40,919 bases of DNA from a virus: IMG/VR virus record IMGVR_UViG_3300042517_000181, positions 1 through 40,919 of that record. One strand, written 5' to 3'. The position numbers and the translations under genes are program-made. Positions 10,254 to 28,008 of this stretch are shown here, one piece after another; position 1 is the first letter of the stretch; each line of letters opens with the position of its first letter. The notes below the pieces were generated by a model that was not told where the DNA came from, made no database searches, and saw nothing but the letters and a program-made list of their open reading frames with translations.

Positions 10254-10364
10254 TTTATTACTCCCATTCATTAGTGTGACGCAACCCACACATCCACCAG
10301 GGGAGATGAATGTGGCTATTGCTACCGGTCTTTGCATCGTCAGGGCCGGTCGGTCTGACGAGAG

Positions 10365-10443
10365 TCCGTAGCCAAGGAATCGAACCTTGCGTGCCTAAGC
10401 GACAGGTTTACAGCCTGCTGCCCCACCTTGGGGCTTGCTACGG
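10365..10443 (-). tRNA. tRNA-Tyr (anticodon GTA), somewhat divergent
   Basis: A 79-base cloverleaf on the minus strand. The acceptor stem CCGTAGC pairs perfectly with GCTACGG, followed by discriminator A and no encoded CCA. The anticodon stem GCAGG/CCTGT encloses loop CTGTAAA, giving anticodon GTA. A 12-base variable region fits the class II shape of bacterial tRNA-Tyr. The T arm CAAGG-TTCGATT-CCTTG is canonical. Odd points are A instead of the near-universal T at position 8 and a tight D arm (GCCC-CAAGGTG-GGGC). It lies inside the late operon between scaffold and internal-protein genes, so it would be made and processed from late transcripts. Confidence 0.85.
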
Positions 10444-15900: not shown

Positions 15901-18399
15901 CAGGTAGTCGCTCGTCTGCCAAAGATGCAAGGGATGCTCAATGCCGTTGAAGTCCGACGGTGACGCACGAAGAATGTTGTCGCCAACTTGACTCACGTCA
16001 AAGAGTGCCGGATTAACGCCATCCACCGCTGGTGCAAGGAAGTCATCAAGAGCCGTAACAGTCTCGCCCTCAACAATGCTAACTGACGACGGAGAAAATC
16101 TAACATCGTCGCGAGTTCCAACACTGAAAGTCTTCACGTACTCGCCAACACTCATGTGCTGATCGTTCGGAAGTCGAAGAACCATGTCCTTAATGTCTTC
16201 AAATCCACGAGCGTAAGTAGAAGTACGGACGACACCAATCCACATCAGAACGCGCTCTGCCTGAGTTCCGTTACGCCATTCGTCGGCAAGCAATTGGGCC
16301 TGATGCCTGGGTAGGTGCATACGGGCATACTTGTAGAACACGTCTGTGTCGCGTGCATCCTTAGTGTAGATGCGTGCCGTACCAGGAGTAGTTGAAAGAA
16401 GTCTGGTTGTCTTATCCCAGGCTGCAGCAATGTTCCTGATGGGGGAAAATCCCACACCCTTCGGACCCAACCGTGCCTCGGTACCAATTCGCTCGGCCTG
16501 CTCGTTTAGCATCATTCCGAAAGACTTGTTCGGATCGTTAGCGTCACCGAACAGTCTCTGCACGTCACGGTCACGAGTGGAGATCCTGCCGGTTGCCGCA
16601 CCAGAAACGTTACGTCGAAGATTACTTACAGCGAGCATACGATTCTGGGGAAGTAGTGGCTTAGAGCGACGGGCACCCTGCTGTCCAAGCATACGACCAA
16701 AGACTGTGCCGCCCTCAATATCGGCAACTTGCCGACCAGCCTGACCCTTTGGGAGAAGCCCGACCTCTTCCATGCCAGCAACCTCGGCACGAGCAATCTT
16801 AGCCATACGGTTAGTCTCATTGACGTATGCAATAAACTCTTCTGGAGTATGAACCTTAGCTTTGGCAAGATCCATAAGAAGATCCTGCGGAAAGTAAGTC
16901 TTGTAGTTATCTGCCAGTTTCTTGCCCAACTTGGCAGTGCTCTGACCTGCTTCGCGTGCAGCATTGTAAGAAGCAATATCTGCGGTCATGGTCTTCAGGT
17001 ACGAGTTGACCGTGGGCATAGTGAGAGCCTTCTCGACACTCTCGGCACCAGCAGTAGAAGCGAGCTTCTCAAGGCCAAAGCGAGCACCCCGGTACACGCG
17101 ATAAAACTTGCTGCCAATAATCGTCGGATCAAAAACCACAGACGATACTACGTTAATACCCTTGGACATTCCTTGCTGAAGCATGGAGCCACGCCAAGCA
17201 GAGTTAATGTCAATTGGCTCACCAGTGACAGGGTTATTTGTAGTAAGAATCGCACCGAAGTCACTAGTTGAAGCAGTGTCCAACTTATCGGCAAGAGTCA
17301 GGATTCTCTCCTGCTCTTTCTCGCGAAGCGGGTCGTCAATAACACGCTGCGATAGAAGTGCAATGTACTCTGCGCGAGCAGGATCATTGACATACTTCTG
17401 GCTAATCGTGGTAATCGGAGTCGGGTCTCCCTCAAGGGAGGCCTGCTTGATCTCCATGATTAGATCAACTGCAACGTTACCGTACTCTTTACGTGCAGCA
17501 TCAAGAACAGCGTTGTCGGTCTTGCCTTCAGCCGTATCTTCCCAGTAGAAGAAAGGATCAAGAATGTTATCAAGTCCAGGGACCCGTCCTTGACGCTTGT
17601 CCTCGGCGGAGCCGTAAGCGTATGATGCAAGCGTGTGCATGGTTCCCTCGTAGATGCTATCCACACCACGCATGAAGCCAGTTGCTAAGTCAGCTACTCC
17701 ACCACCGAAACCCTGAGCTAACTGACGGGCTGGACCGTAGGTTGTTTCCTCTTCGGTAGCAAGACGCTGATCACGCTTACGTCGCTCAACTGAATCGCGA
17801 GCATACTCCTGCTGCGAATTAAGAATATCGTTAACTACCGCACGCTGAGCCTCGGGAAGCGACAGGAAAATGTTGACCTGGCTCTGAGCAGTGACGGCAG
17901 AGTTGATAGCGTCAGCAGCAGTCCATGCTGCAGAGAAGTTGACCATGCGCCGAACGTCAGCCTCGGTCAAATCTGGAGCCTCAAGCATTGCCATGGCGAC
18001 ACTCGGGTAACGCTGAACCGGAATAGCAATACGGTTATTCCAGTCAGCAACCTTAGCGTTAGCCTCTTCAAGCTTCTTCTTCTGAAACTCGCTGCGCTGA
18101 GTCGCTGCTGCAGCACGAACTGCAGGATTAGCGGGTATGCCAGTCATGCCAGGAAGTAAAGGCTTAGTCGCGTCTTCCTTAGCGCCAAGAGCCTTAGAGT
18201 ATTCCTCGGCAGCAATCCAACGATCTTGGTTTGCTTTGTATGAACCAGTATCGGCAGGCAGAAGATTCTTGAACTTTAGTTCGTCCTCAGTTGCCGCAAG
18301 AATCTGGCTATCTCGCTCTTTCACTGCTGGAGCCGGGGTACCATCCTGAAACTTCTTTGCTGGTGCCGGCGTTCCATCACTGAACTTATTGATAGCCAA
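12910..18399 (-). CDS. Giant (1829-residue) putative internal/ejected virion protein
   Basis: The largest gene in the window. It starts at TTG (18399), immediately after an in-frame TAA and 11 bases after GAGG; no nearby ATG competes. The protein begins with a tandem motif KFxDGTPAPA, then is mostly helical with occasional hydrophobic stretches, for example QLAQGFGGGVADLATGFM and PRYATRNAMEDWTLYALTGG. Late segments include ANQTILAWRLRNWARYYRAT and GDKYFMYPGDG. I find no lysozyme, protease or polymerase motif by eye. Giant proteins in podovirus structural clusters are often internal cores injected with the DNA, which is my best guess. It could also include an unrecognised enzymatic domain. It sits between portal and scaffold genes, which is unusual. 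Confidence 0.6.
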   Translation of the reverse strand: MAINKFSDGTPAPAKKFQDGTPAPAVKERDSQILAATEDELKFKNLLPADTGSYKANQDRWIAAEEYSKALGAKEDATKPLLPGMTGIPANPAVRAAAATQRSEFQKKKLEEANAKVADWNNRIAIPVQRYPSVAMAMLEAPDLTEADVRRMVNFSAAWTAADAINSAVTAQSQVNIFLSLPEAQRAVVNDILNSQQEYARDSVERRKRDQRLATEEETTYGPARQLAQGFGGGVADLATGFMRGVDSIYEGTMHTLASYAYGSAEDKRQGRVPGLDNILDPFFYWEDTAEGKTDNAVLDAARKEYGNVAVDLIMEIKQASLEGDPTPITTISQKYVNDPARAEYIALLSQRVIDDPLREKEQERILTLADKLDTASTSDFGAILTTNNPVTGEPIDINSAWRGSMLQQGMSKGINVVSSVVFDPTIIGSKFYRVYRGARFGLEKLASTAGAESVEKALTMPTVNSYLKTMTADIASYNAAREAGQSTAKLGKKLADNYKTYFPQDLLMDLAKAKVHTPEEFIAYVNETNRMAKIARAEVAGMEEVGLLPKGQAGRQVADIEGGTVFGRMLGQQGARRSKPLLPQNRMLAVSNLRRNVSGAATGRISTRDRDVQRLFGDANDPNKSFGMMLNEQAERIGTEARLGPKGVGFSPIRNIAAAWDKTTRLLSTTPGTARIYTKDARDTDVFYKYARMHLPRHQAQLLADEWRNGTQAERVLMWIGVVRTSTYARGFEDIKDMVLRLPNDQHMSVGEYVKTFSVGTRDDVRFSPSSVSIVEGETVTALDDFLAPAVDGVNPALFDVSQVGDNILRASPSDFNGIEHPLHLWQTSDYLSVPNMNELQRITKRNALINAVRGVTGGQSVATEIVNYWSLLNLMGPRYATRNAMEDWTLYALTGGYLMDAIKGFGIAKGIREARGQGLGIFARSRRKTTEKFFNDANPYSVWNSLIRPNLDPDEVAKARAAMLEGNLNELRDLSVRAVLRLETGRLLSKEEQRFLKKFAGSSAAYSKLDEISESAAHLGNGTVPGADIAGTVNRGMISDESIIVYPRGQYKDIQMSGEGANNYSRFTYWHRNIRSTIMADGSIGKIAMEALDDPELAIRLVADEIARDTKYGYKQRLAAFYDMRTAVTDDEFARRYVQDVLNLFSRRDGSFNSELWSKFVMDMGDGTRIVKFATQSNGKWEAPISVSDLMKLDGKDMPKYVLGRETQLEAIKLDMSLSDKIWQMMGNTVNRISREPIFFANYLRERKQLLGYEQALVRDMGADLAEDTVHRHALDRATQVMLSYTDNPANQTILAWRLRNWARYYRATEDFYRRVYRMAKFEPIGFYKAALTLNALEDQGFIHTDEYGDKYFMYPGDGLMNNTIGRFTSWLTGGNDSFVGSVPLVFGGKVKMLAPSFDPNAAMPMLSGPLAAIGVKTVLNIVPQFASVEKYILGEYAVGKSIVESSLPAPIVRFLAALDNDERNTMYASAYMAGIKVLDAAGKLPDLTSDDMTQDEVQKAVSTVATNILASRFVNSFFYQASPQVMENDVTTFARTYGMPSMSSDYKNRVQKFRDAGETDPYGMALQEGVSIYGINYTTWNVSQRERGDELKGLPEIGYLDTVFQFAEDNKAVIKKYPSSAYFLAPTEGEFTIAAIDQAEQAGLVRSASITDFSRRLRYADGAYYYRQASSSYRNALAEATDQGQISAAENAWKNAKIKIFADFPGLAAYMKENIGYGGWEAEAINRNNPESVRRMVDDYYAGKFGEDIPKSVEYIAEAMNTYDYFKTRMTEITGSSEPERIAKSGYKSELLNSLKSISEDDPNAAMFIRQVLYVLLDADSEGNLR

Positions 18400-20052: not shown

Positions 20053-21957
20053 CTAGATTGGTAGACGGCGTGAAACGCCAGCAGTAAGATTCGGTTCCCC
20101 ACCAGCACCCAGGGAAGCCATAAGCATCTGAAGATCAGGGCGACCACCAGGTGACATACCAGCCTGACCGGGTGCAACACCACGCATCAAACCAGTTCCT
20201 TCACCGATACCTTCGAGGTTACCCCCGCCACCACCGGGGGGTACTTCACCTGGAGCGCCCATTTCTCCTGGGCCTGCTGCCATGGCTTCACCCGCACCCG
20301 GTGGCGTGGGAATCTCCTGCGGTTCAAACGCCTGTGCCACCACTTCTTCGATGGACTTACCACGTTGCCGACCGATAATAATGGCAGAGAGGCGTGACAG
20401 AATGTCGCCCGGATCTTGCCCGTTCTGGGCTAGTACCGGAATTGCCTGAGCATAGCCTGCAACGGCTTGCTTTAACGCGTCCCGCATCTCTTCGATGTCA
20501 ACACGCTGTTCCTCTTCGGTCGCGTTCAACGCGAATGGCATCTGCCTACGCAGGAAGTCTCGTGAAATGAGACGATCACCTCGTGCCTGGAGACCAAACA
20601 CGAGAGCACGGTTGGGGTCAAGTCCGGCCATGAGACCGTACTGGACATCGACCGTATGGTCACCCTTGATGTCCTTGCTGGGAGTGTACTTGATTTCATA
20701 CGGGGTGCCGTCGGCATTGCCACGCATGACCTTCTTCATGTCACCGAAGAGCTTCTCGTCAACTTCGAAGCACATCATGATCAGGTCACGGATGGACCTG
20801 GCGAACATGGACTGGCCGGTACGGATCTGCGTATCAAAGCCAGACATGAGTGCCTGAACGCCACGACCCGTGACAGTGGAACCGTCTACCTCGCCACTAC
20901 GGGCGTTGGGGTAGCGTGAACCCTGGCGAAGTTCCTGATCCAGTACACCCTGTTGGGCGAATGCTGCCTGCGGCACCTCAATGGGTACGCGGCGAACACG
21001 GTCACCGTTAGCGGTACGGATAATGGAGTCCGAACCGAATGCGAGTTCTTGTGCGTCGGGCGGCAGAACGATAGGTGCCTGGACTGCCTTCTGTGCAGCC
21101 TCAAGGGACAGCAGTGCGAAGCGTGCCTTAGCAACCTGCACTGCGAGAACGTCATCGAACTGTCCATGCGAGTCGTCGTCAACGCCAGGGCGCTGAGTCC
21201 ACACAACCATGCACTGACCGATGGGGTTCTTCGCCGCTTCAAGGACGAGACCGTTCTGGTCCTGTGCCAAGTACAGTACGTCTACGTGCTTGTCGTGGTA
21301 GCGAACTACCTCTACGCGGTCACTGCCGGCACCTGGACGCTCAAGAGCTCCCTTAGCCTCGGGGTACATGCCAAGTAGTTCGTCGCGAGTCTTGTAGAAC
21401 GTGAAGTAGCAGGCTTCGACGTTGCCCCAGCGGTCGAAGACGGGGTAGGAGCCGATGGAGTCGAAGAACTTGATGCGCGGTGTCATCTTGTTCATGTCGA
21501 TCTCGACCATTGCGGGGACGAAACCGTACGTGAAGTAGCGGTCGGCAGCGGTGTACATCTGCTTCTGCATGTCCGAGATGTCAACGTAGCCGTTAACGAT
21601 CTTGGTGCGAATGTCAGCGAACTCGCGTGCCTTGTCCGAAGTCATGGACGAAGCTGAGCAGTTGAATGAGGGCAGTGGTGCCAGTACCTCGGCAAGGTCA
21701 CGTGCCGCCACGTCCACCATGTTCGCTACAATGCCACGATCAAACGGGCCATCGGGGAACAGTTCGGGGTACACGTCGCGCATACGGCCCTGGCGTACAG
21801 CGAGAACGTTCTGCATACGCTGGTCGCGCTCTGAGAACCGTGACTTCAGACGGTCGTACATGGAACGAATGGTGGCAAGGTCGGCGGGACCGGCAGTTGC
21901 CTGCACGTTGCCGAACATCACCACACTGTCCTTATTGTAACGGTTGTAGTCCGTCAA
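20053..21957 (-). CDS. Portal protein
   Basis: A 634-residue portal, the dodecameric gate through which DNA enters and leaves the capsid. It directly follows the terminase. Typical features are the early DLATIRSMYDRLKSRF helix, a mid region with IKFFDSIGSYPVFDRWGNV and FYKTRDELLGMYPEAKG, the long helical segment FDDVLAVQVAKARFALLSLEAAQKAV, and a disordered Gly/Pro-rich tail. Start choice: TTG at 21957 has AGGAGGA 4-5 bases upstream, while the longer frame from ATG at 21987 lacks a site and overlaps the terminase. It is a podovirus-like portal by length and tail; the family is assigned from memory. Confidence 0.85.
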   Translation of the reverse strand: MTDYNRYNKDSVVMFGNVQATAGPADLATIRSMYDRLKSRFSERDQRMQNVLAVRQGRMRDVYPELFPDGPFDRGIVANMVDVAARDLAEVLAPLPSFNCSASSMTSDKAREFADIRTKIVNGYVDISDMQKQMYTAADRYFTYGFVPAMVEIDMNKMTPRIKFFDSIGSYPVFDRWGNVEACYFTFYKTRDELLGMYPEAKGALERPGAGSDRVEVVRYHDKHVDVLYLAQDQNGLVLEAAKNPIGQCMVVWTQRPGVDDDSHGQFDDVLAVQVAKARFALLSLEAAQKAVQAPIVLPPDAQELAFGSDSIIRTANGDRVRRVPIEVPQAAFAQQGVLDQELRQGSRYPNARSGEVDGSTVTGRGVQALMSGFDTQIRTGQSMFARSIRDLIMMCFEVDEKLFGDMKKVMRGNADGTPYEIKYTPSKDIKGDHTVDVQYGLMAGLDPNRALVFGLQARGDRLISRDFLRRQMPFALNATEEEQRVDIEEMRDALKQAVAGYAQAIPVLAQNGQDPGDILSRLSAIIIGRQRGKSIEEVVAQAFEPQEIPTPPGAGEAMAAGPGEMGAPGEVPPGGGGGNLEGIGEGTGLMRGVAPGQAGMSPGGRPDLQMLMASLGAGGEPNLTAGVSRRLPI

Positions 21958-21965
21958 GATTCCTC

Positions 21966-23846
21966 CTAAGCCCCGACCGTCATCCAAGCCCGACGGGCCT
22001 CAAGGTCAACAAGATCAATAGTTATTTGCCCCTTCTTGTCCCACGGTGTGAGGAAAGGGTTCTTTGTGTTATGTTTCGCGAAGTTACTGGCGAGTAACAC
22101 TCGGTCTCGGCAAGCCAGTTCGGCAAACCACAACGCCATAACAATGTCAGTCTTCTGACCCTTGGGTGCGCTAGGTGCCCAAGTGACAAGCTGCTCAATA
22201 AACTGCTTCATTGACTCTTGACCCTGAGTGGACGGCAGTTCAATCATCTGATTACCGTCCTCATAGCCTGAGAACAAGGTAGTCATCGCTGCCACACCGA
22301 AGTCCGAGTCGTGCTTGTTGGCACCGGTGAAGTGGGGTCGAATGATAGTTCCACGGTTAGAGCAGAACTCGTTCACTTCACGATCATGCACCAGGAAGCC
22401 CTGGAAGCCGTTCTTCTCGATACGCCATTCAATGATCCCGTACTTATCGGTCCACTGCTTGATCACATCGCGGATACCCTCGGGGCTTGTGCCAGCCTTA
22501 TTGTATACATCCAGCACATACCGCTTATTAGTGGTCAAATCTAGGCCGATACATACAGCGGCAGTACAGCCCGAGGTGGCGGGGTCTAGGCCAGCCATGA
22601 CGACTAGCCCTTCCATGCCACGTTCGCGGCAGTTCACCATACCCTTCGGCATAATGCCAGCCATGCGGTTACCGTTAATAGCGGCACGCACCGCATCAGG
22701 GTGGAATACTGCATCGTCAGCAACCTGCTGCTGCATGTACACCATGGCCCAAGCCCTAGGCGACACGCGCTTACGCTTCTTAGATAGACGAACACCGTCC
22801 CACTTCGGGAACCATCCATCTTCATCAGGCTCTAGAGCCTCGCCCTTAGCCCCAGCTTCAGGCTGGTTAGAACGAGGCCAGAGGGTAACCCAATCCTCAA
22901 CCCGGTCATTGAACTCTAGTACCGCTGGCATAGCCAGGTACGACCAGGGAGACTCATCATCGGGGTACCGAGACGGGTCATGAAGTTCAGAATACAGATC
23001 CTTACTGGACAGGCGGGTACCTACCACCAGCATCGTGCCCGAGGCACTAATACGGGAGATAACTTCCGACTGCAGCCAGTGAATCTGCTTGTCATACTCG
23101 TGGGCATTGGTCATATCCACGCAGTCATCCATGATGATCAGATCAGCACGGGCACCGTATACGTGCCCACGAATACCCAGAGCTTGTACCGTTGGGTCTT
23201 TTTCACCCGAATCGCGTGCATTGTCCGATATGTAGATCATGTTCTGATTCCACGCCTCAGACTCCTTATCGAAGCCGCCCGGAGGGCCATAGGCGTTAAT
23301 CATCTCCTGATAGCGGGGATGCGTAAGTCGCGTCTTGATCGCGTACAGCATCTTCTTCGCCATCTCCGCAGTCTTAGAAATCAAGATCACGCGGATATTG
23401 GGGTCCATCGCAATACGATACGTTACGTAGTTGATCGTGATGGAAGTGGTTTTGGCGTGCTCGGGTGGCATATTCACCATAACCAGGTCGCGTTCACCCG
23501 GCAGCCAAGTCATTGCTGGGTGTCTCCAAGAAGGCTCATTGCCCTCGATTAGATCCACCACATTCTGCATATGCGGGAAAACACGCGCACCAAGATACTT
23601 CTCTGAGAACTCCGGAAAGGACATCTCCTCGCCACGCTCCGAAGAGCCAAGCTGCTGCATGTTGCGTATACGGGTCACTGCCGACAGGAACTCGGCATCA
23701 TCCCTACGCCACCGCTCATACGCCGTCTGATGCCGGCCCACCTTAATGAGGGCATCCTTGACGGTAGAACCCGCAGAAATCTCTTTCAGAAACCGCTGCT
23801 TAATTTCGACCAGCGGCTCGTTAGCCTTACGACCAGGAGCCGCCAT
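21966..23846 (-). CDS. Terminase large subunit (packaging ATPase-nuclease)
   Basis: A 626-residue packaging motor. Residues about 15-65 look like a helix-turn-helix (KDALIKVGRHQTAYERWRR). The ATPase has a variant Walker A, MPPEHAKTT (126-134), and Walker B LIIMDDCVD (236-244). The RNase H-like nuclease begins MAGLDPATSG (D421) and has RIEKNGFQG and DFGVAAM further on, with acidic residues at the expected places. The enzyme cuts concatemers and pumps DNA through the portal. No separate small subunit gene is seen nearby; the amino-terminal helix-turn-helix could take that role. The gene follows a basic protein and precedes the portal with a 9-base gap. Confidence 0.95.
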   Translation of the reverse strand: MAAPGRKANEPLVEIKQRFLKEISAGSTVKDALIKVGRHQTAYERWRRDDAEFLSAVTRIRNMQQLGSSERGEEMSFPEFSEKYLGARVFPHMQNVVDLIEGNEPSWRHPAMTWLPGERDLVMVNMPPEHAKTTSITINYVTYRIAMDPNIRVILISKTAEMAKKMLYAIKTRLTHPRYQEMINAYGPPGGFDKESEAWNQNMIYISDNARDSGEKDPTVQALGIRGHVYGARADLIIMDDCVDMTNAHEYDKQIHWLQSEVISRISASGTMLVVGTRLSSKDLYSELHDPSRYPDDESPWSYLAMPAVLEFNDRVEDWVTLWPRSNQPEAGAKGEALEPDEDGWFPKWDGVRLSKKRKRVSPRAWAMVYMQQQVADDAVFHPDAVRAAINGNRMAGIMPKGMVNCRERGMEGLVVMAGLDPATSGCTAAVCIGLDLTTNKRYVLDVYNKAGTSPEGIRDVIKQWTDKYGIIEWRIEKNGFQGFLVHDREVNEFCSNRGTIIRPHFTGANKHDSDFGVAAMTTLFSGYEDGNQMIELPSTQGQESMKQFIEQLVTWAPSAPKGQKTDIVMALWFAELACRDRVLLASNFAKHNTKNPFLTPWDKKGQITIDLVDLEARRAWMTVGA

Positions 23847-23848
23847 GA

Positions 23849-24058
23849 TTACTTGCCCTTCTTGTGCGGTTCAGTCTTGTGATACTTCTTGCTAGCCGCA
23901 ACACCCTGCTTCACGGTCTTAGCGCCAGCCTTCTCAGTGAGATTAATCTTGTCCCACTTCTTACCACTAGAACCAGCATGATCGACAGTAACCTTCTTAC
24001 CGTCCTTCTTGAAAGTATGCTTCACGCCAGTAATCTTGACCGTCTTCTTCTCAGCCAC
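23849..24058 (-). CDS. Lysine-rich protein at the head of the late operon
   Basis: A 69-residue, very basic protein (about 20 lysines), for example KKTVKITGVKHTFKKDGKKV and KTVKQGVAASKKYHKTEPHK. It starts with GTG at 24058 and is the first gene of the late unit, next to the control region. The first 30 residues could form a small beta hairpin. It may be a nucleoid-like or DNA-binding protein. No named family is recognised. Confidence 0.6.
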   Translation of the reverse strand: MAEKKTVKITGVKHTFKKDGKKVTVDHAGSSGKKWDKINLTEKAGAKTVKQGVAASKKYHKTEPHKKGK

Positions 24059-24102
24059 GGCGTTCCCATCAGTAAGTAGTTGTCCACAAGTACCCGCAAT
24101 CG

Positions 24103-24161
24103 CGAGGTGGGGTCAAAGCCTCGGCCATCCTAGTAGCCACGGTGCGGGTCAAAGCCGTGGC
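24103..24161. promoter_or_regulatory. Twin look-alike hairpins with GGGTCAAAG loops
   Basis: CGAGG (24103-24107) pairs with CCTCG (24119-24123), and GCCACGG (24136-24142) pairs with CCGTGGC (24155-24161). The stems differ in sequence but both stay paired, while both loops end in GGGTCAAAG at the same place. A third, looser GGGG/CCCC hairpin carrying GGTCAAA lies at 24213-24231. On the minus strand this is upstream of the late operon; on the plus strand it could be part of an RNA ending near 24442. Confidence 0.6.
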
Positions 24162-24274
24162 GTACCGTACACCAGAACCCCGCAATAGCCTCGGCGTAGC
24201 CAGAGACCAGAAGGGGTCAAATAGAGGCCCCAGCAAGGGGCACAGCTATGGTCCCGGCGAAGCAAAGCAAGTAT

Positions 24275-24348
24275 CCGTACCGTACTACGCCAAAGGCTCC
24301 GTACAGTAACCGTGCCGTACCGTACTCCACTAAAAGTTCCGTACAGTA
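24275..24348. repeat. Two tandem 40-base units of CCGTAC boxes
   Basis: Each unit has CCGTACCGTACT, 12 variable bases, then CCGTACAGTA. Box starts are 24275, 24299, 24315 and 24339, so the spacing alternates 24, 16, 24. A related CGTACCGTAC stands at 24161-24170. The regular spacing, next to AT-rich DNA, fits binding sites for an initiator or a regulator (iteron-like). No initiator gene is recognised. Confidence 0.65.
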
Positions 24349-24364
24349 CGACCCCCGTAGGCTC

Positions 24365-24390
24365 CGCCCCTAGTGAGCCCCAACGGGGCG
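24365..24390. promoter_or_regulatory. GC-rich hairpin
   Basis: GCCCC (24377-24381) and GGGGC (24385-24389) form a tight stem with loop AAC. An alternative longer stem uses CGCCCC (24365-24370) and GGGGCG (24385-24390). The two foldings exclude each other. It is followed at once by AT-rich DNA. Confidence 0.5.
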
Positions 24391-24410
24391 AACCCTACAA
24401 CTATATATCC

Positions 24411-24442
24411 GTGTCAAAATAACTAAACTGTGACACTTTTTT
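24411..24442 (+). terminator. Inverted repeat with T6 tract (terminator-like)
   Basis: GTGTCA and TGACAC are separated by 14 AT-rich bases and followed directly by six T on the plus strand. The stem is short (6 pairs), so efficiency would be modest. If active, it would end a plus-strand transcript from the structured region at 24100-24400. It could instead be a protein-binding palindrome. Confidence 0.45.
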
Positions 24443-24460
24443 ATGTAAAATCTTTCAAAA

Positions 24461-24474
24461 GTGATACACATCAC
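24461..24474. promoter_or_regulatory. Operator-like palindrome GTGAT-ACAC-ATCAC
   Basis: A perfect 5-base inverted repeat in the AT-rich stretch 24390-24580, close to the GTGTCA/TGACAC inverted repeat. Such short perfect palindromes are usual for dimeric regulators. The regulator is unknown. Confidence 0.4.
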
Positions 24475-24572
24475 ATCCATAACCGTACTAAAATAGGACA
24501 ATACAGGACACCACAGCAGGAGGCCAGAATAGTAGACAAGATTACAGATATACTATTATTACCGCTATAGGG

Positions 24573-24716
24573 ACCCCTAAAACACAAACACCCAGGTCAA
24601 GTCTGTAGGGTTTGGGGTACGGTCGCGCGAGCCTTTCCTACTAAGTCTGTAGGGATAGTGTGTGGGGGTAGGGGGTAGCTTGTGTCCGTGCCATAGTATA
24701 CTAATTCTGTAGGGAA
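24573..24716. repeat. Repeated TCTGTAGGG boxes before the early genes
   Basis: Three copies of TCTGTAGGG at 24602-24610, 24646-24654 and 24706-24714, the last two inside the longer CTAAKTCTGTAGGGA, and a related CTATAGGGA at 24575-24583. They lie in the gap before the first early gene, in the direction of early transcription. They may be operators or parts of phage-specific promoters; no polymerase gene is seen, so a regulator or host sigma factor would have to read them. The remainder of 24717-24953 holds an AGGTATACCT palindrome, GGTAAC repeats and TATATAT, but no gene that I can support. Confidence 0.5.
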
Positions 24717-24953
24717 TGTCGGGTAAGGTATACCTAAGTTACTGACCGGTAACCTACTCACGGGTAACTAACGGGAGCTCACGCGTGCATATATATGGAG
24801 AGAGACTATCCACCTTCCCTTGTCCGGTGCCAGTGTTGCGGGAGCTTTCGGCCTAGGTTATCCGTTATCGAATTGTGACATATTGGCGGCATGTCGCGTG
24901 AGCTTTCGTGCTACGTTGTCCCCATGTCTACTTCACTTAGAGAGAGAGAGCTC

Positions 24954-25163
24954 ATGTCTATTGCGTATGTCGTGACCGTTAGTGTTCCCCCGCATGTCGT
25001 CCCGCATGGCCGCCGGGATAGGTGCGCCGGTTCTGGGGATACCCTAGAATGGACGTATTCCCCCGAATGGGCGCCGGGAGCTACGTCACCTATCGGTTCC
25101 GTGATGCAGTGTGAGAATTGCTGGCTAGGCTTCACCGTCAATTCTGCATACATTGTCGGTTAG
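24954..25163 (+). CDS. First early gene, small zinc-ribbon-like protein
   Basis: A 69-residue protein beginning MSIAYVVTVSVPPHVVPHG and ending with CENCWLGFTVNSAYIVG. The CENC pair and an earlier cysteine and histidines suggest a small metal-binding fold. ATG at 24954 follows AGAGAGAGAGCTC. An in-frame ATG at 24924 upstream would add ten residues (MSTSLREREL), encoded by the ribosome-site repeat itself, so the shorter start is preferred. Function unknown. Confidence 0.65.
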   Translation: MSIAYVVTVSVPPHVVPHGRRDRCAGSGDTLEWTYSPEWAPGATSPIGSVMQCENCWLGFTVNSAYIVG

Positions 25164-25172
25164 GCTTGTGTC

Positions 25173-25230
25173 GTCACCGTGCCTAGTGTACGGTGGCGGC
25201 ACTGGCCCCGCCGGGGACCATTTAGAGAGA
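25173..25230 (+). promoter_or_regulatory. Two-hairpin early leader 1
   Basis: GTCACCGT pairs with ACGGTGGC (25173-25197) around a loop containing CCTAGTG. A second stem, TGGCCCC with GGGG-A-CCA (25203-25220), has a three-base loop. TTAGAGAGAGG then leads to the ATG at 25242. The same order of elements recurs before several other early genes. Confidence 0.6.
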
Positions 25231-25241
25231 GGATTTATCTC

Positions 25242-25601
25242 ATGTCTCACACTGTCGAATATATGTCTGTCACTTCCCATTGTGGGGAAGTGTTCCCGTT
25301 CATACAGGCCGGATTCACGGTTAGTGATTCCCGCGATATCCGCGCCGATTATTCATGCGGCCACTACTTCTCACCGGGTGCTATCCGATTTTTTGGGATG
25401 CGCTACTTCCGTACGGTAGCTCCGGGAGCTAGCGTCCAACTACAGGAGAACGCCCCCGCCGGTGTCGGTCGCTATGCCGCTACGGTATGGGAAACTAGGG
25501 ACCATGGGGGACCTAATGCGCTCATTACTTGCCATCACGAGACGCGCGCGGCCGCTAATCGTTGCGCCATTGCCACGTCTAACGCACTTAGGGGAGCGTG
25601 A
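25242..25601 (+). CDS. Uncharacterised early protein
   Basis: A 119-residue protein starting MSHTVEYMSVTSHCGEVFPF. It is rich in aromatic residues, His and Cys (CGHYFSPGAIRFFGMRYF, CHHETRAAANRC), but the spacing does not match a known zinc finger. ATG at 25242 follows AGAGAGAGGATTTATCTC; a longer in-frame reading from 25179 runs through the leader hairpins and is unlikely. It is expressed early by position and may target a host protein. Confidence 0.6.
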   Translation: MSHTVEYMSVTSHCGEVFPFIQAGFTVSDSRDIRADYSCGHYFSPGAIRFFGMRYFRTVAPGASVQLQENAPAGVGRYAATVWETRDHGGPNALITCHHETRAAANRCAIATSNALRGA

Positions 25602-25605
25602 GCTC

Positions 25606-25755
25606 ATGTCTACTATTACGGTAGAACGTCATAGCCACGACGGATTCACCCTATGGGGCACGGATAGGGAGGGATGCCTGGTACACCGGCGATACGTAGG
25701 GTATACCTTGCGTGAGGCGCGTGTATCCTTCCGTGCCTACATTAGGGAGCTCTAG
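25606..25755 (+). CDS. Small uncharacterised early protein (49 residues)
   Basis: Sequence MSTITVERHSHDGFTLWGTD at the start, then VHRRYVGYTLREARVSF. This looks like a small beta-beta-alpha fold. ATG at 25606 has GGGGAG and GAGCTC just upstream and begins 2 bases after the previous stop region. It overlaps the next gene's GTG by one base. Confidence 0.6.
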   Translation: MSTITVERHSHDGFTLWGTDREGCLVHRRYVGYTLREARVSFRAYIREL

Positions 25756-25841
25756 TGGAAACTCTAATCGTCCTAGCCATGATTCCCCTAGGTGCCCTAG
25801 CGATTAGCCTAGCGGCCGGCAGTAATAGGGCACGAGACTAG
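25755..25841 (+). CDS. Tiny membrane peptide (28 residues)
   Basis: GTG at 25755 shares its first base with the previous TAG and has GGGAG five bases upstream. The peptide, METLIVLAMIPLGALAI then SLAAGSNRARD, is one hydrophobic helix with a charged, positive end, so it should insert in the inner membrane. Codon choice is extremely biased to CTA/TAG-containing words. Candidate roles are membrane disturbance or superinfection effects; the evidence is the sequence alone. Confidence 0.5.
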   Translation: METLIVLAMIPLGALAISLAAGSNRARD

Positions 25842-25858
25842 CCTAGTTTCATAGTGCG

Positions 25859-25920
25859 CGATAGTTGCCTAGTGTGCTATCGTTCGCTATGTCCCTAGGG
25901 TAGGGATATAGAGAGAGAGG
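25859..25920 (+). promoter_or_regulatory. Two-hairpin early leader 2
   Basis: CGATAG (25859-25864) pairs with CTATCG (25877-25882), with CCTAGTG in the loop. TCCCTA-GGG-TAGGGA (25892-25906) is a perfect second hairpin with a GGG loop. TATAGAGAGAGAGG follows, then GTG at 25929. Confidence 0.65.
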
Positions 25921-25928
25921 AAAGTCTA

Positions 25929-26288
25929 GTGAAGTATTCCAAGGATGAACGCGCACAATTCGTACGTGACCTACGTGCTGCCGGTGAATTGTTCGCGGCA
26001 GGCACTAGTGAGAGTGAGCTCATGGACTCTCACGCTAGCCTCATGTCGCGCTATTCGTTCGCTAATGTCTGCCGGATTCTGTCTCAGAATCCTAGCGCGT
26101 CAGTGGTGGCAGGCTTTCGGCAGTGGGAAGAATCCGGTCGCAACGTGGCGAAAGGCTCTAAGGCTATCTATATACTGGCACCTATGGCACGGAAGAATGA
26201 TGACGGCGACATGGTGAAGGTAGGCTTTCGTTGCGTGGCAGTATTCGATATCTCGCAAACTATTGTTAGTGAGCTTGCGTTAGTGTAG
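25929..26288 (+). CDS. ArdC-type antirestriction / ssDNA-binding domain protein
   Basis: A 119-residue protein that matches the amino-terminal domain of ArdC-like antirestriction proteins. Signature parts are YSFANVCRILSQNPSAS, then VVAGFRQWEESGRNVAKG, SKAIYILAPMARK and GFRCVAVFDISQT. In plasmid ArdC this domain binds single-stranded DNA and is followed by a zinc metalloprotease domain; here the protein ends after the binding domain. It probably shields incoming DNA from restriction early in infection. GTG at 25929 follows AGAGAGAGAGGAAAGTCTA. The TAG stop lies inside the next leader hairpin. Confidence 0.88.
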   Translation: MKYSKDERAQFVRDLRAAGELFAAGTSESELMDSHASLMSRYSFANVCRILSQNPSASVVAGFRQWEESGRNVAKGSKAIYILAPMARKNDDGDMVKVGFRCVAVFDISQTIVSELALV

Positions 26289-26379
26289 CCTAGTGCTATC
26301 GCGTGACTAGCAGACTCCCGAGTGCAAGTCTTGGGCACGCACTATCCGCGCCAATAAGGGTACGGATTAGAGAGAGAGG
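26285..26379 (+). promoter_or_regulatory. Early leader 3
   Basis: TAGC (26286-26289) pairs with GCTA (26295-26298), closing loop CTAGT; the stem includes the ArdC-type gene's stop codon. A looser GTGC/GCAC pairing follows. TTAGAGAGAGAGGC leads to the ATG at 26386. The first hairpin matches leaders 2 and 4; the second is less clear. Confidence 0.5.
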
Positions 26380-26385
26380 CAAGAC

Positions 26386-26997
26386 ATGTCATCATTCACT
26401 ATTCGCGCTAGTGTCTTCCGTGACCTATTGGCCGGTGCCATGGTCGCTAGTGGTACTGACGCCACGCTCCCTACGTTGCGTGCAGTGCAGCTAGAATGGG
26501 AAGACGGTATCGTAGAATCCGTAGCGACCGATAGGTACCGTATCTCACACGGTAAGCACGCTATTGGGGACCTAGGATGCACGGTAGAATCTGGCAAGGT
26601 ACTGCTTGACCGTAGCATGGTGAGTGATCTAGTGAAGGTACTCCCGAAAGCACCTAAGCGTGGCCAGGAGTACGCCACTGTCACTGTCACGGTAGGTGAA
26701 GGCAACGTCAAGGTAGCTTGCGCTCATGAATCATGGGAACGCACTATCCCTACCCTTATGGGAGACTTCCCTAAGTGGCGTGAGCTCGTGGACAAGTTCC
26801 GTAACGCTACGCGAGAATCCGTCAGTGAAGTGGCCTATAACCCGGCCTATCTGGCAGATGTCTCTAAGCTCCCTCATGATCCTAAGCGACCGGTGAAGAT
26901 GTCATTCACGGAAGCGCACAAGCCTTGCGTCATGACCTACGATGACTACAATGACGTGGCATGGGAGTACGTGCTTATGCCGGTGCGTCTAGGCTAG
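26386..26997 (+). CDS. Compact beta-sliding-clamp-like protein
   Basis: A 203-residue relative of the bacterial polymerase III beta clamp. The start (FTIRASVFRDLLAGAM, TLPTLRAVQLEWEDG, SVATDRYRI) follows the DnaN domain I pattern. The middle (ISH...KVLLDRSMVSDLVKVL, then IPTLMGDFPKW) resembles the linker and domain II end. The tail (NPAYLADVSKLP, then WEYVLMPVRLG) matches the DnaN carboxy terminus. The usual clamp has about 370 residues in three domains and forms a dimer; this one has room for two domains, so a trimer like PCNA is possible. There is no DNA polymerase gene in the window. It is expressed early under leader 3 and may recruit host polymerase III. Confidence 0.8.
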   Translation: MSSFTIRASVFRDLLAGAMVASGTDATLPTLRAVQLEWEDGIVESVATDRYRISHGKHAIGDLGCTVESGKVLLDRSMVSDLVKVLPKAPKRGQEYATVTVTVGEGNVKVACAHESWERTIPTLMGDFPKWRELVDKFRNATRESVSEVAYNPAYLADVSKLPHDPKRPVKMSFTEAHKPCVMTYDDYNDVAWEYVLMPVRLG

Positions 26998-27018
26998 TTC
27001 CCTACCGTTACGGTTAGG

Positions 27019-27081
27019 CATAGCCTAGTGCTATGTCTTCCCGTGACAGTATGGCACTGTCAAGCTAGACAATAGAGAGAG
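27019..27081 (+). promoter_or_regulatory. Two-hairpin early leader 4
   Basis: CATAGC-CTAGT-GCTATG (27019-27035) and TGACAGT-ATGGC-ACTGTCA (27044-27062) are perfect hairpins. AATAGAGAGAGG follows, then ATG at 27090. The first hairpin has the same CTAGT loop as leader 3. Confidence 0.65.
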
Positions 27082-27089
27082 GCTAGGCG

Positions 27090-27263
27090 ATGGAACACTT
27101 AGATTACTATGGTCACGGGATCACTACGGATACCGACGATATGAATGGATACGTATACCGTGACGGTCGCAAGGTGAAGACGTATCGTGGAGAGTCGGCA
27201 TGGATGGATGCCGAAAGGTACGCTAGTGACCTTGCCACTGGCATTAGATACGGGAAGGTGTAG
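27090..27263 (+). CDS. Small uncharacterised early protein (57 residues)
   Basis: Starts MEHLDYYGHGITTDTDDMNG, then YVYRDGRKVKTYRGESAWMD. It is short, with charged and aromatic residues and a likely beta-beta-alpha fold. ATG at 27090 has GAGAGAGGCTAGGCG just before. No family is recognised. Confidence 0.6.
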   Translation: MEHLDYYGHGITTDTDDMNGYVYRDGRKVKTYRGESAWMDAERYASDLATGIRYGKV

Positions 27264-27309
27264 GCGCATGATGAATACTATCTACGCCAACTAGCCTAAG
27301 CTTATGGTG

Positions 27310-27373
27310 ACTAGCCTGCCGGCAGTGTAGGCTAGTGGCCATAGTCCTAGGGTAGGACTAGATGAGAGAGAGG
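27310..27373 (+). promoter_or_regulatory. Two-hairpin early leader 5
   Basis: ACTAGCCT (27310-27317) pairs with AGGCTAGT (27329-27336). AGTCCTA-GGG-TAGGACT (27343-27359) has the same GGG loop and closing pairs as leader 2, with different outer pairs. GAGAGAGAGG follows, then GTG at 27381. Confidence 0.65.
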
Positions 27374-27380
27374 ATATACC

Positions 27381-27881: not shown

Positions 27882-27920
27882 AGACTTGCTGACGGGTAGT
27901 TCTAGAGTGTTCCCGTTAGC

Positions 27921-27977
27921 CTGACCATGGCCGGCTGGTTGTCGGATAATAGGTAGGTTCGATTCCTGCATGGTTGG
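27921..27977 (+). ncRNA. tRNA-like element lacking an anticodon arm
   Basis: A canonical T arm, GTAGG-TTCGATT-CCTGC (27953-27969), is followed by ATGGTTGG, which pairs with CTGACCAT (27921-27928) as an acceptor-like stem with two G-U pairs. Between them is one D-arm-like hairpin, CCGG-CTGGTTG-TCGG (27931-27945), and only seven more bases, so there is no anticodon arm. It lies in a 127-base gap between genes. It may be a decayed tRNA, a tRNA mimic or chance. Confidence 0.35.
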
Positions 27978-28008
27978 CGCATCACAAGCCAAGAGAAAGG
28001 ACAAGGTA

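Follow-up and report, generated by a model that had tools for sequence, protein, structure and literature searches.

Two-hairpin leader RNAs between early genes of a virus related to cluster BF Streptomyces phages and their possible role in translation

Why are similar structured segments placed, one after another, in the gaps between early genes of a virus? The question is raised by IMG/VR virus record IMGVR_UViG_3300042517_000181, a stretch of 40,919 bases that was analysed as a whole and is called the window here. Its plus strand carries the early genes, starting at ~24.95 kb, and the gaps between the first of them are occupied by leaders in which hairpins precede a ribosome site. The reading that we favour, with confidence just short of even, is that such a leader is a cis-acting RNA between early genes of a polycistronic message and would act on the translation of the next gene.

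Of five leaders that a first-pass annotation had listed as two-hairpin modules, calling the second hairpin of leader 3 unclear, four (leaders 1, 2, 4 and 5 at 25.16, 25.84, 27.00 and 27.30 kb) show two adjacent hairpins just 5' of the ribosome site. The folding energy of each window leader was compared with 200 dinucleotide shuffles. None of the shuffles reached leader 1 (z -4.95; 0/200) or leader 5 (z -4.83; 0/200), one reached leader 4 (z -3.20; 1/200) and seven reached leader 2 (z -2.17; 7/200), and for these four the claimed pair holds. The leader of the first early gene gave z -0.15 with dinucleotide shuffles. No Rfam family matches the leaders in the window or in its relatives L034 and L044. 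A paired change had also been reported between two of the second hairpins, at 25892-25906 and 27343-27359, and is indeed present (TCCCTA-GGG-TAGGGA versus AGTCCTA-GGG-TAGGACT). Two paralogous stems alone are little proof of RNA function; the proposal that the leaders function as RNA draws its support not from these but from covariation in relatives.

Contig L002/L070 is 99.8% identical to the window over 24000-26411, and L034 and L044 are up to 96% and up to 88% identical to it around the early block. L034 and L044 carry different early genes in place of the window's block, and since the block is absent from these closest relatives, covariation was tested in more distant ones. A Megablast search of the window against phages gave no match, and the sliding-clamp protein, used as bait in viral_contigs, recovered no relatives. 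The window terminase is ~48% identical to the terminase of cluster BF (Beephvirinae) Streptomyces phages. Gaps of 55-105 nucleotides (nt) in the early operon of these phages lead from the stop codon through a long hairpin, often capped by a UNCG loop, and a short hairpin to a CAAGGGGAGAGA-type ribosome site, a layout that precedes many of their early genes. The spacing of the two stems is 0-1 nt in 24 of 46 leaders, namely where the predicted fold shows both, the remainder being merged into a larger fold. The distance from the last stem to the start codon has a median of 19 nt, and hairpin 1 carries a recurrent U-U interruption.

Homologues with compensatory pairs, which the first-pass annotation had named as a check of its proposal, were found among orthologous leaders of the cluster BF phages. 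The three alignments A1, A2 and A3, with leaders from 7-8 genomes each, contain 9, 10 and 11 pairs that are changed on both sides; their covariation scores of 0.36-0.52 compare with 0.16-0.23 for shuffled alignments (0/500 shuffles reach them) and with ~0.20 or below for slid versions. In 58 aligned leaders all 21 pairs change on both sides, although this alignment was fitted to the structure and is biased that way. The sense strand folds better than the antisense strand in 35 of 39 BF leaders (p 4e-7), and C(UNCG)G tetraloops are present in 21 of 37 cases. Covarying stems, strand bias and UNCG loops are, as judged from sequence comparison, marks of RNA and not of DNA sites. Comparative evidence thus identifies both hairpins as RNA, in the window as well as in the relatives.

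Membership of the window leaders was assessed with covariance model R2, whose sources were BF and environmental relatives alone, with no sequence of the window among them. Run over 24.0-28.5 kb with filters off, R2 returned leaders 4, 1, 5 and 2 as its four best matches (19.6, 16.5, 12.2 and 10.6 bits, respectively). The control maxima were 10.7 bits in 28.0-32.5 kb, 8.1 bits in 1-24 kb and 10.9 bits in L034, a relative that shares the window's ribosome site; measured against them, leaders 4 and 1 lie clearly above, leader 5 slightly above, and leader 2 stands out by rank only. When 275 kb were searched with default filters, R2 missed the window leaders; it did give 16.7-17.0 bits to single stretches of L034 and L044 that lie outside the control region, mostly through the ribosome site. 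R2 also scores leader positions on the correct strand in the terminase-group relatives L005, L020, L027, L031 and L035, and hairpin 2 of leader 4 closely matches hairpin 2 of L020 and L035 in sequence. Model R1, made from a single orthologue group, fails to reach the window. The R2 matches place the four window leaders in the BF two-hairpin family.

A third pairing was detected in the BF leaders, in which the hairpin-2 loop is complementary to a segment at the stop codon of the preceding gene and hairpin 1 is enclosed between the two. Pairs of loop and stop segment include ACTGG/CCAGT, TGCTA/TAGCA, GCACG/CGTGC, TCAC/GTGA and AACTCA/TGAGTT, among others. The loop-stop score is 6.08 for a leader's own segments versus 4.79 when segments are swapped among leaders (standard deviation 0.165; 0/2000 swaps; z 7.8), and 7.85 versus 6.41 within orthologue groups. 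Two separate orthologue groups each have a 5-base-pair (bp) helix that is 100% paired and in which four of the five pairs are changed on both sides. Along the upstream gene, complementarity is flat at 3.3-4.4 before it climbs to 5.1 on reaching the stop codon and to 5.3 a further twelve bases downstream. Of 38 leaders, 19 have a paired segment that includes at least part of the stop codon. Both leaders of L005 have stop-containing partners in their predicted fold. These comparisons establish the stop contact for the BF relatives only, where the third pairing is best described as a pseudoknot, or as an alternative fold in some leaders. As for the window, ACTAGCCTA is found at the stop codon and CCTAGGGTAGG in hairpin 2 of both leader 2 and leader 5; neither has a third copy on the plus strand of the window, and the hairpins 1 of the two leaders differ despite the shared segments. 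Pairing with the stop codon in leaders 2 and 5 is suggestive and is taken as a lead only; if real, it would account for the GGG loop that both have kept.

How could such a fold act? In this reading the long hairpin follows the upstream stop codon and the short hairpin is stacked on it, ending ~15-27 nt before the next start, which corresponds to the edge of the footprint of an initiating ribosome. In the BF phages, pairing of loop and stop folds the entire gap up as a compact pseudoknot, and a ribosome terminating the upstream gene would have to break the stop contact and then release it. The fold would in this way sense upstream translation and offer a clean single-stranded ribosome site. Neighbouring genes would be coupled, or deliberately insulated, over gaps too long for ordinary reinitiation, and the outcome could be activation or repression. 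We infer an effect on the translation of the downstream gene because hairpin 2 lies at the footprint edge, because the contact lies where the terminating ribosome stands, because no promoter was seen in the window gaps, and because of the length of the gaps: coupling as a rule concerns overlaps or very short gaps, and over 55-105 nt simple reinitiation should no longer take place (PMC10666635). That the relatives conserve a contact of hairpin 2 with the stop codon speaks for translation rather than for processing. That a released arm of hairpin 2 might sequester the ribosome site seemed plausible in one BF group and not in the window, and this variant was dropped.

Several observations weigh against a role in translation of this kind. 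The nearest relatives, L034 and L044, manage most of their early genes without the module, which is therefore not indispensable. Leader 3 (26285-26379), the fifth of the leaders claimed, does not fold above chance (z -0.59; 51/200 shuffles) and ranks sixth with R2 at 5.7 bits; on the evidence, it is not a member of the module. The GAGAGAG ribosome site is included in R2 and contributes to all of its scores, the covariation alignments comprise just 7-8 sequences each, and the swap tests count related leaders as independent. In the window, the stop pairing comprises 7-8 of 8-9 pairs in leaders 2 and 5 and is not significant against shuffles (p 0.05 and 0.22); in leaders 1 and 4 there is no such pairing. 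In L034 and L044 the AGAGAGAGG site precedes many genes without the hairpin pair, and a structured leader is found only at the first gene. Together with the different early genes of these relatives this indicates that the ribosome site is general and that the two-hairpin module travels with gene cassettes, as far as such comparisons tell. The AGAGAGAGG ribosome site of the first-pass annotation is accordingly real but no part of the module.

The main rival, which the first-pass annotation had raised and which we regard as unlikely, is that the leaders serve processing and stability: the message would be cut in or near hairpin 1, and hairpin 1 would guard the upstream 3' end and hairpin 2 the downstream 5' end. 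A position just 3' of stop codons and 5' of each early gene fits this, as do the long perfect stems, the recurrent U-U interruption of BF hairpin 1, the stacking of the hairpins at 0-1 nt and, in L020 and L035, the hairpin that comes straight after a TTGACT-17-TAG(A/G)CT promoter and thus lies at a message 5' end. There is a parallel in the early region of T7, where RNase III sites between genes, for which processing was experimentally shown, are likewise structured RNA between successive phage early genes; we know of no stop-codon pairing at these sites. Processing leaves the covariation of the hairpin-2 loop with the stop segment unexplained, however, and the stems, at 8-15 bp, are short for RNase III substrates. 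It is improbable that hairpin 1 is an actinobacterial terminator or attenuator without U tract that causes a stepwise drop along the operon. The location after stop codons and the UNCG loops of the BF leaders would suit it, such loops being common in terminators, but no convincing T run follows the hairpins (a scan gave one spurious leader match), there is no promoter in the gaps to restart transcription, and a terminator needs neither hairpin 2 nor the stop pairing. The combination of a GC-rich hairpin and a U tract that marks intrinsic terminators is missing from the leaders, U-less terminators not being excludable by sequence. We consider it slightly less probable again that a phage or host RNA-binding protein recognises the leaders, or that they resemble put RNA and act on RNA polymerase, so that the early genes would be switched jointly. 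Repeated copies in a single operon and the CTAG that recurs in window leader loops would suit this, and the layout recalls the adjacent hairpins of HK022 put RNA. Stem and loop sequences of the BF copies vary freely, however, leaving little for a common protein, and dozens of copies are unlike antitermination sites.

A simple consensus scan found no sigma-70-like promoters in the window leaders; a promoter inside window hairpin 1 (e.g. TTGTGT-17-TACGGT in leader 1) was rejected as too weak and was missed by the scan. A DNA-level element, with the inverted repeats as operators or promoter-containing repeats, might be suggested by the SigA-like promoters of the ESAS repeats of cluster K (PMC11373665) and by the dense CTAG palindromes of the block, but is disfavoured and very improbable in view of the strand asymmetry of folding, the G-U pairs, the leaders without promoter matches and the conservation of pairs instead of sequences.

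A search of open-access papers yielded no published description of a two-hairpin leader, and published accounts of BF phages (Abafar; FlowerPower and others) make no mention of such leaders. The claim that no module of this form has been described thus stands for the literature searched, with the qualification that related start-associated repeats are known from clusters K, EF, EG and O. The nearest described elements are SAS and ESAS of cluster K mycobacteriophages (PMC3203893, PMC11373665) and similar actinophage motifs, such as those of Microbacterium cluster EF (PMC7302621). Like the leaders, SAS and ESAS are repeated 5' of some non-structural genes, combine an inverted repeat with an unusually conserved ribosome-site motif that follows it directly ahead of the start, and have no assigned function. 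ESAS is a single 17-bp imperfect repeat of conserved sequence with a SigA-like promoter (PMC11373665) and has no described RNA fold, whereas the leaders fold into two hairpins of variable sequence with kept pairing, show no promoter and, in the BF phages, form the third pairing at the stop. The 13-bp cluster K motif GGGATAGGAGCCC is absent from the leaders, whose ribosome site is (T)AGAGAGAGG, and no match to the SigA-like promoter that accompanies the cluster K inverted repeat was found in them by the simple consensus scan. Short inverted repeats near genes are also known from cluster EG (PMC7302621), typically 14-22 bp before starts, and from cluster O (PMC6439249); these are identical in sequence, a DNA-type conservation, in contrast to the covarying stems described here. 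A pseudoknot 5' of the ribosome site is required for translation of timP mRNA and has covariation support, and the timP paper cites a standby pseudoknot of tisB (PMC11228461). The position upstream of the ribosome site is shared with the leaders, but timP and tisB are single chromosomal toxin mRNAs of enterobacteria, in which the pseudoknots were experimentally shown to drive translation; they are not repeated between phage genes and, unlike those of the BF leaders, not anchored on a stop codon.

Table 1 Leader elements in the window
Feature	Position	Strand	Description
Leader 1 hairpin 1	25168..25202	+	15-bp stem, loop CTAGT; 4 nt past stop TAG 25161-25163
Leader 1 hairpin 2	25203..25220	+	TGGCCCC-GCC-GGGG(A)CCA, abuts hairpin 1
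Leader 1 ribosome site	25223..25232	+	TAGAGAGAGG; start codon 25242
Stop segment 5' of leader 2	25837..25845	+	ACTAGCCTA at stop TAG 25839-25841; possible hairpin-2 partner
Leader 2 hairpin 1	25858..25883	+	GCGATAGT...GCTATCGT, includes GCCTAGTG
Leader 2 hairpin 2	25887..25911	+	CTATGTCCCTA-GGG-TAGGGATATAG
Leader 2 ribosome site	25911..25920	+	GAGAGAGAGG; start GTG 25929 (ArdC N-terminal-domain-like protein)
Leader 3 candidate hairpin 1	26285..26299	+	only 5 bp, around CCTAGTG; overlaps stop codon
Leader 4 hairpin 1	27016..27038	+	9 bp; AGGCATAGC-CTAGT-GCTATGTCT
Leader 4 hairpin 2	27044..27062	+	TGACAGT-ATGGC-ACTGTCA
Leader 4 ribosome site	27073..27082	+	TAGAGAGAGG; start ATG 27090
Stop segment 5' of leader 5	27290..27298	+	ACTAGCCTA at stop TAG 27292-27294; possible hairpin-2 partner
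Leader 5 hairpin 1	27310..27336	+	ACTAGCCTGC-CGGCAGT-GTAGGCTAGT
Leader 5 hairpin 2	27342..27360	+	TAGTCCTA-GGG-TAGGACTA
Leader 5 ribosome site	27364..27373	+	GAGAGAGAGG; start GTG 27381

The late genes lie on the minus strand (terminase 21966-23846, portal 20053-21987), and the early genes near the leaders encode an ArdC-N-like protein (25929-26288) and a sliding-clamp-like protein (26386-26997). The CCTAGTG or CTAGT motif, said to mark the first hairpin throughout, occurs as a CCTAGTG loop in leaders 1-4 only, leader 5 having CTAG in its stem. CCTAGTG is not enriched genome-wide (8 versus 5.0 expected). Within 24.9-27.6 kb, GCCTAGTG has 4 copies versus 0.10 expected (0/1000 shuffles), and CTAGT-loop hairpins with stems of >=5 bp number 3 versus 0.05 expected (0/1000 shuffles). 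CTAG is ~5-6x denser in the early block than in the rest of the window, and this holds for coding sequence too (9.5 per kb coding and 33 per kb non-coding, versus ~2-3 elsewhere), and since its density is high in the genes of the block as well, the motif must not be over-read. Counted by kilobase, CTAG amounts to 12-15 per kb in 25.0-28.0 kb versus 0-4 in the adjacent kilobases; an excess that is weaker than that of the window and includes coding sequence is also seen at the early-operon start of L005, L010, L018, L020 and L035. The pattern GCCTAGTG...AGAGAGAGG matched 14 loci in viral_contigs and was discarded: two matches occurred together only in the near-identical contig, and the others were single and chance-like. 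An ACTAG loop of hairpin 2 (L005, L027, L031, L020 and L035) was likewise rejected as a conserved feature, because loops vary and it is not general; its recurrence is partly due to pairing with a CTAG stop context.

Further elements were noted in the same regions. In L020 and L035, ~1.7-1.8 kb upstream of the terminase start, the clear sigma-70-like promoter TTGACT-17-TAG(A/G)CT runs straight into an ACTAG-loop hairpin, with a ribosome site after it. The first early gene of BF phages (e.g. L085 ~16630-16780) is preceded by a longer structured leader, whose covarying hairpin, framed by CCGGGAG...CCCTTAA, lies just before the ribosome site. The window block is replaced in L034 (2470-3075) and L044 (11510-12130), both counted on the reverse complement, by ~600 conserved, apparently non-coding, GC-rich bases 5' of the first early gene; this stretch has no Rfam match and could be a large structured RNA. 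A conserved non-coding element at 27893-27985 of the window and ~4750-4855 of L034 (reverse complement) consists of a hairpin, GCTGACGGG...CCCGTTAGC, and a tRNA-like piece, GTAGGTTCGATTCCTGC. The latter has acceptor-, D-arm- and T-arm-like parts, lacks the anticodon arm and receives no call from ARAGORN; the stems of the element show compensatory differences between the window and L034. Three (A)AGTCTGTAGGG / ATTCTGTAGGG copies are present at 24610-24740, in the divergent region between the terminase and the early operon, with related copies in L034, L044 and L020, and may serve as operator or origin repeats. At 24275-24348 there are two direct repeats of 34 bases, CCGTACCGTACTACGCC...CCGTACAGTA, 85% identical and spaced by 40, and a tRNA-Tyr (GTA) gene on the minus strand at 10364-10443 has a long variable arm that gives a sub-threshold tRNA-Sec match.

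Start-associated elements had previously been noted in several actinophage groups, with no function assigned to them. The RNA fold with its covariation, together with the stop contact of the BF phages, replaces the vague notion of 'repeats near start codons' by a defined structure, which allows precise mutations in culturable Streptomyces phages. More tentatively than the role in translation itself, we propose that the leaders may represent a new class of phage regulatory RNA: serial, gene-by-gene pseudoknots anchored on the preceding stop codon, through which the terminating ribosome would set the translation of the next gene across 55-105 nt and in which the fold is kept while sequences drift. 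Coupling over such a distance, if true, would break the rule that confines it to overlaps and short gaps (PMC10666635).

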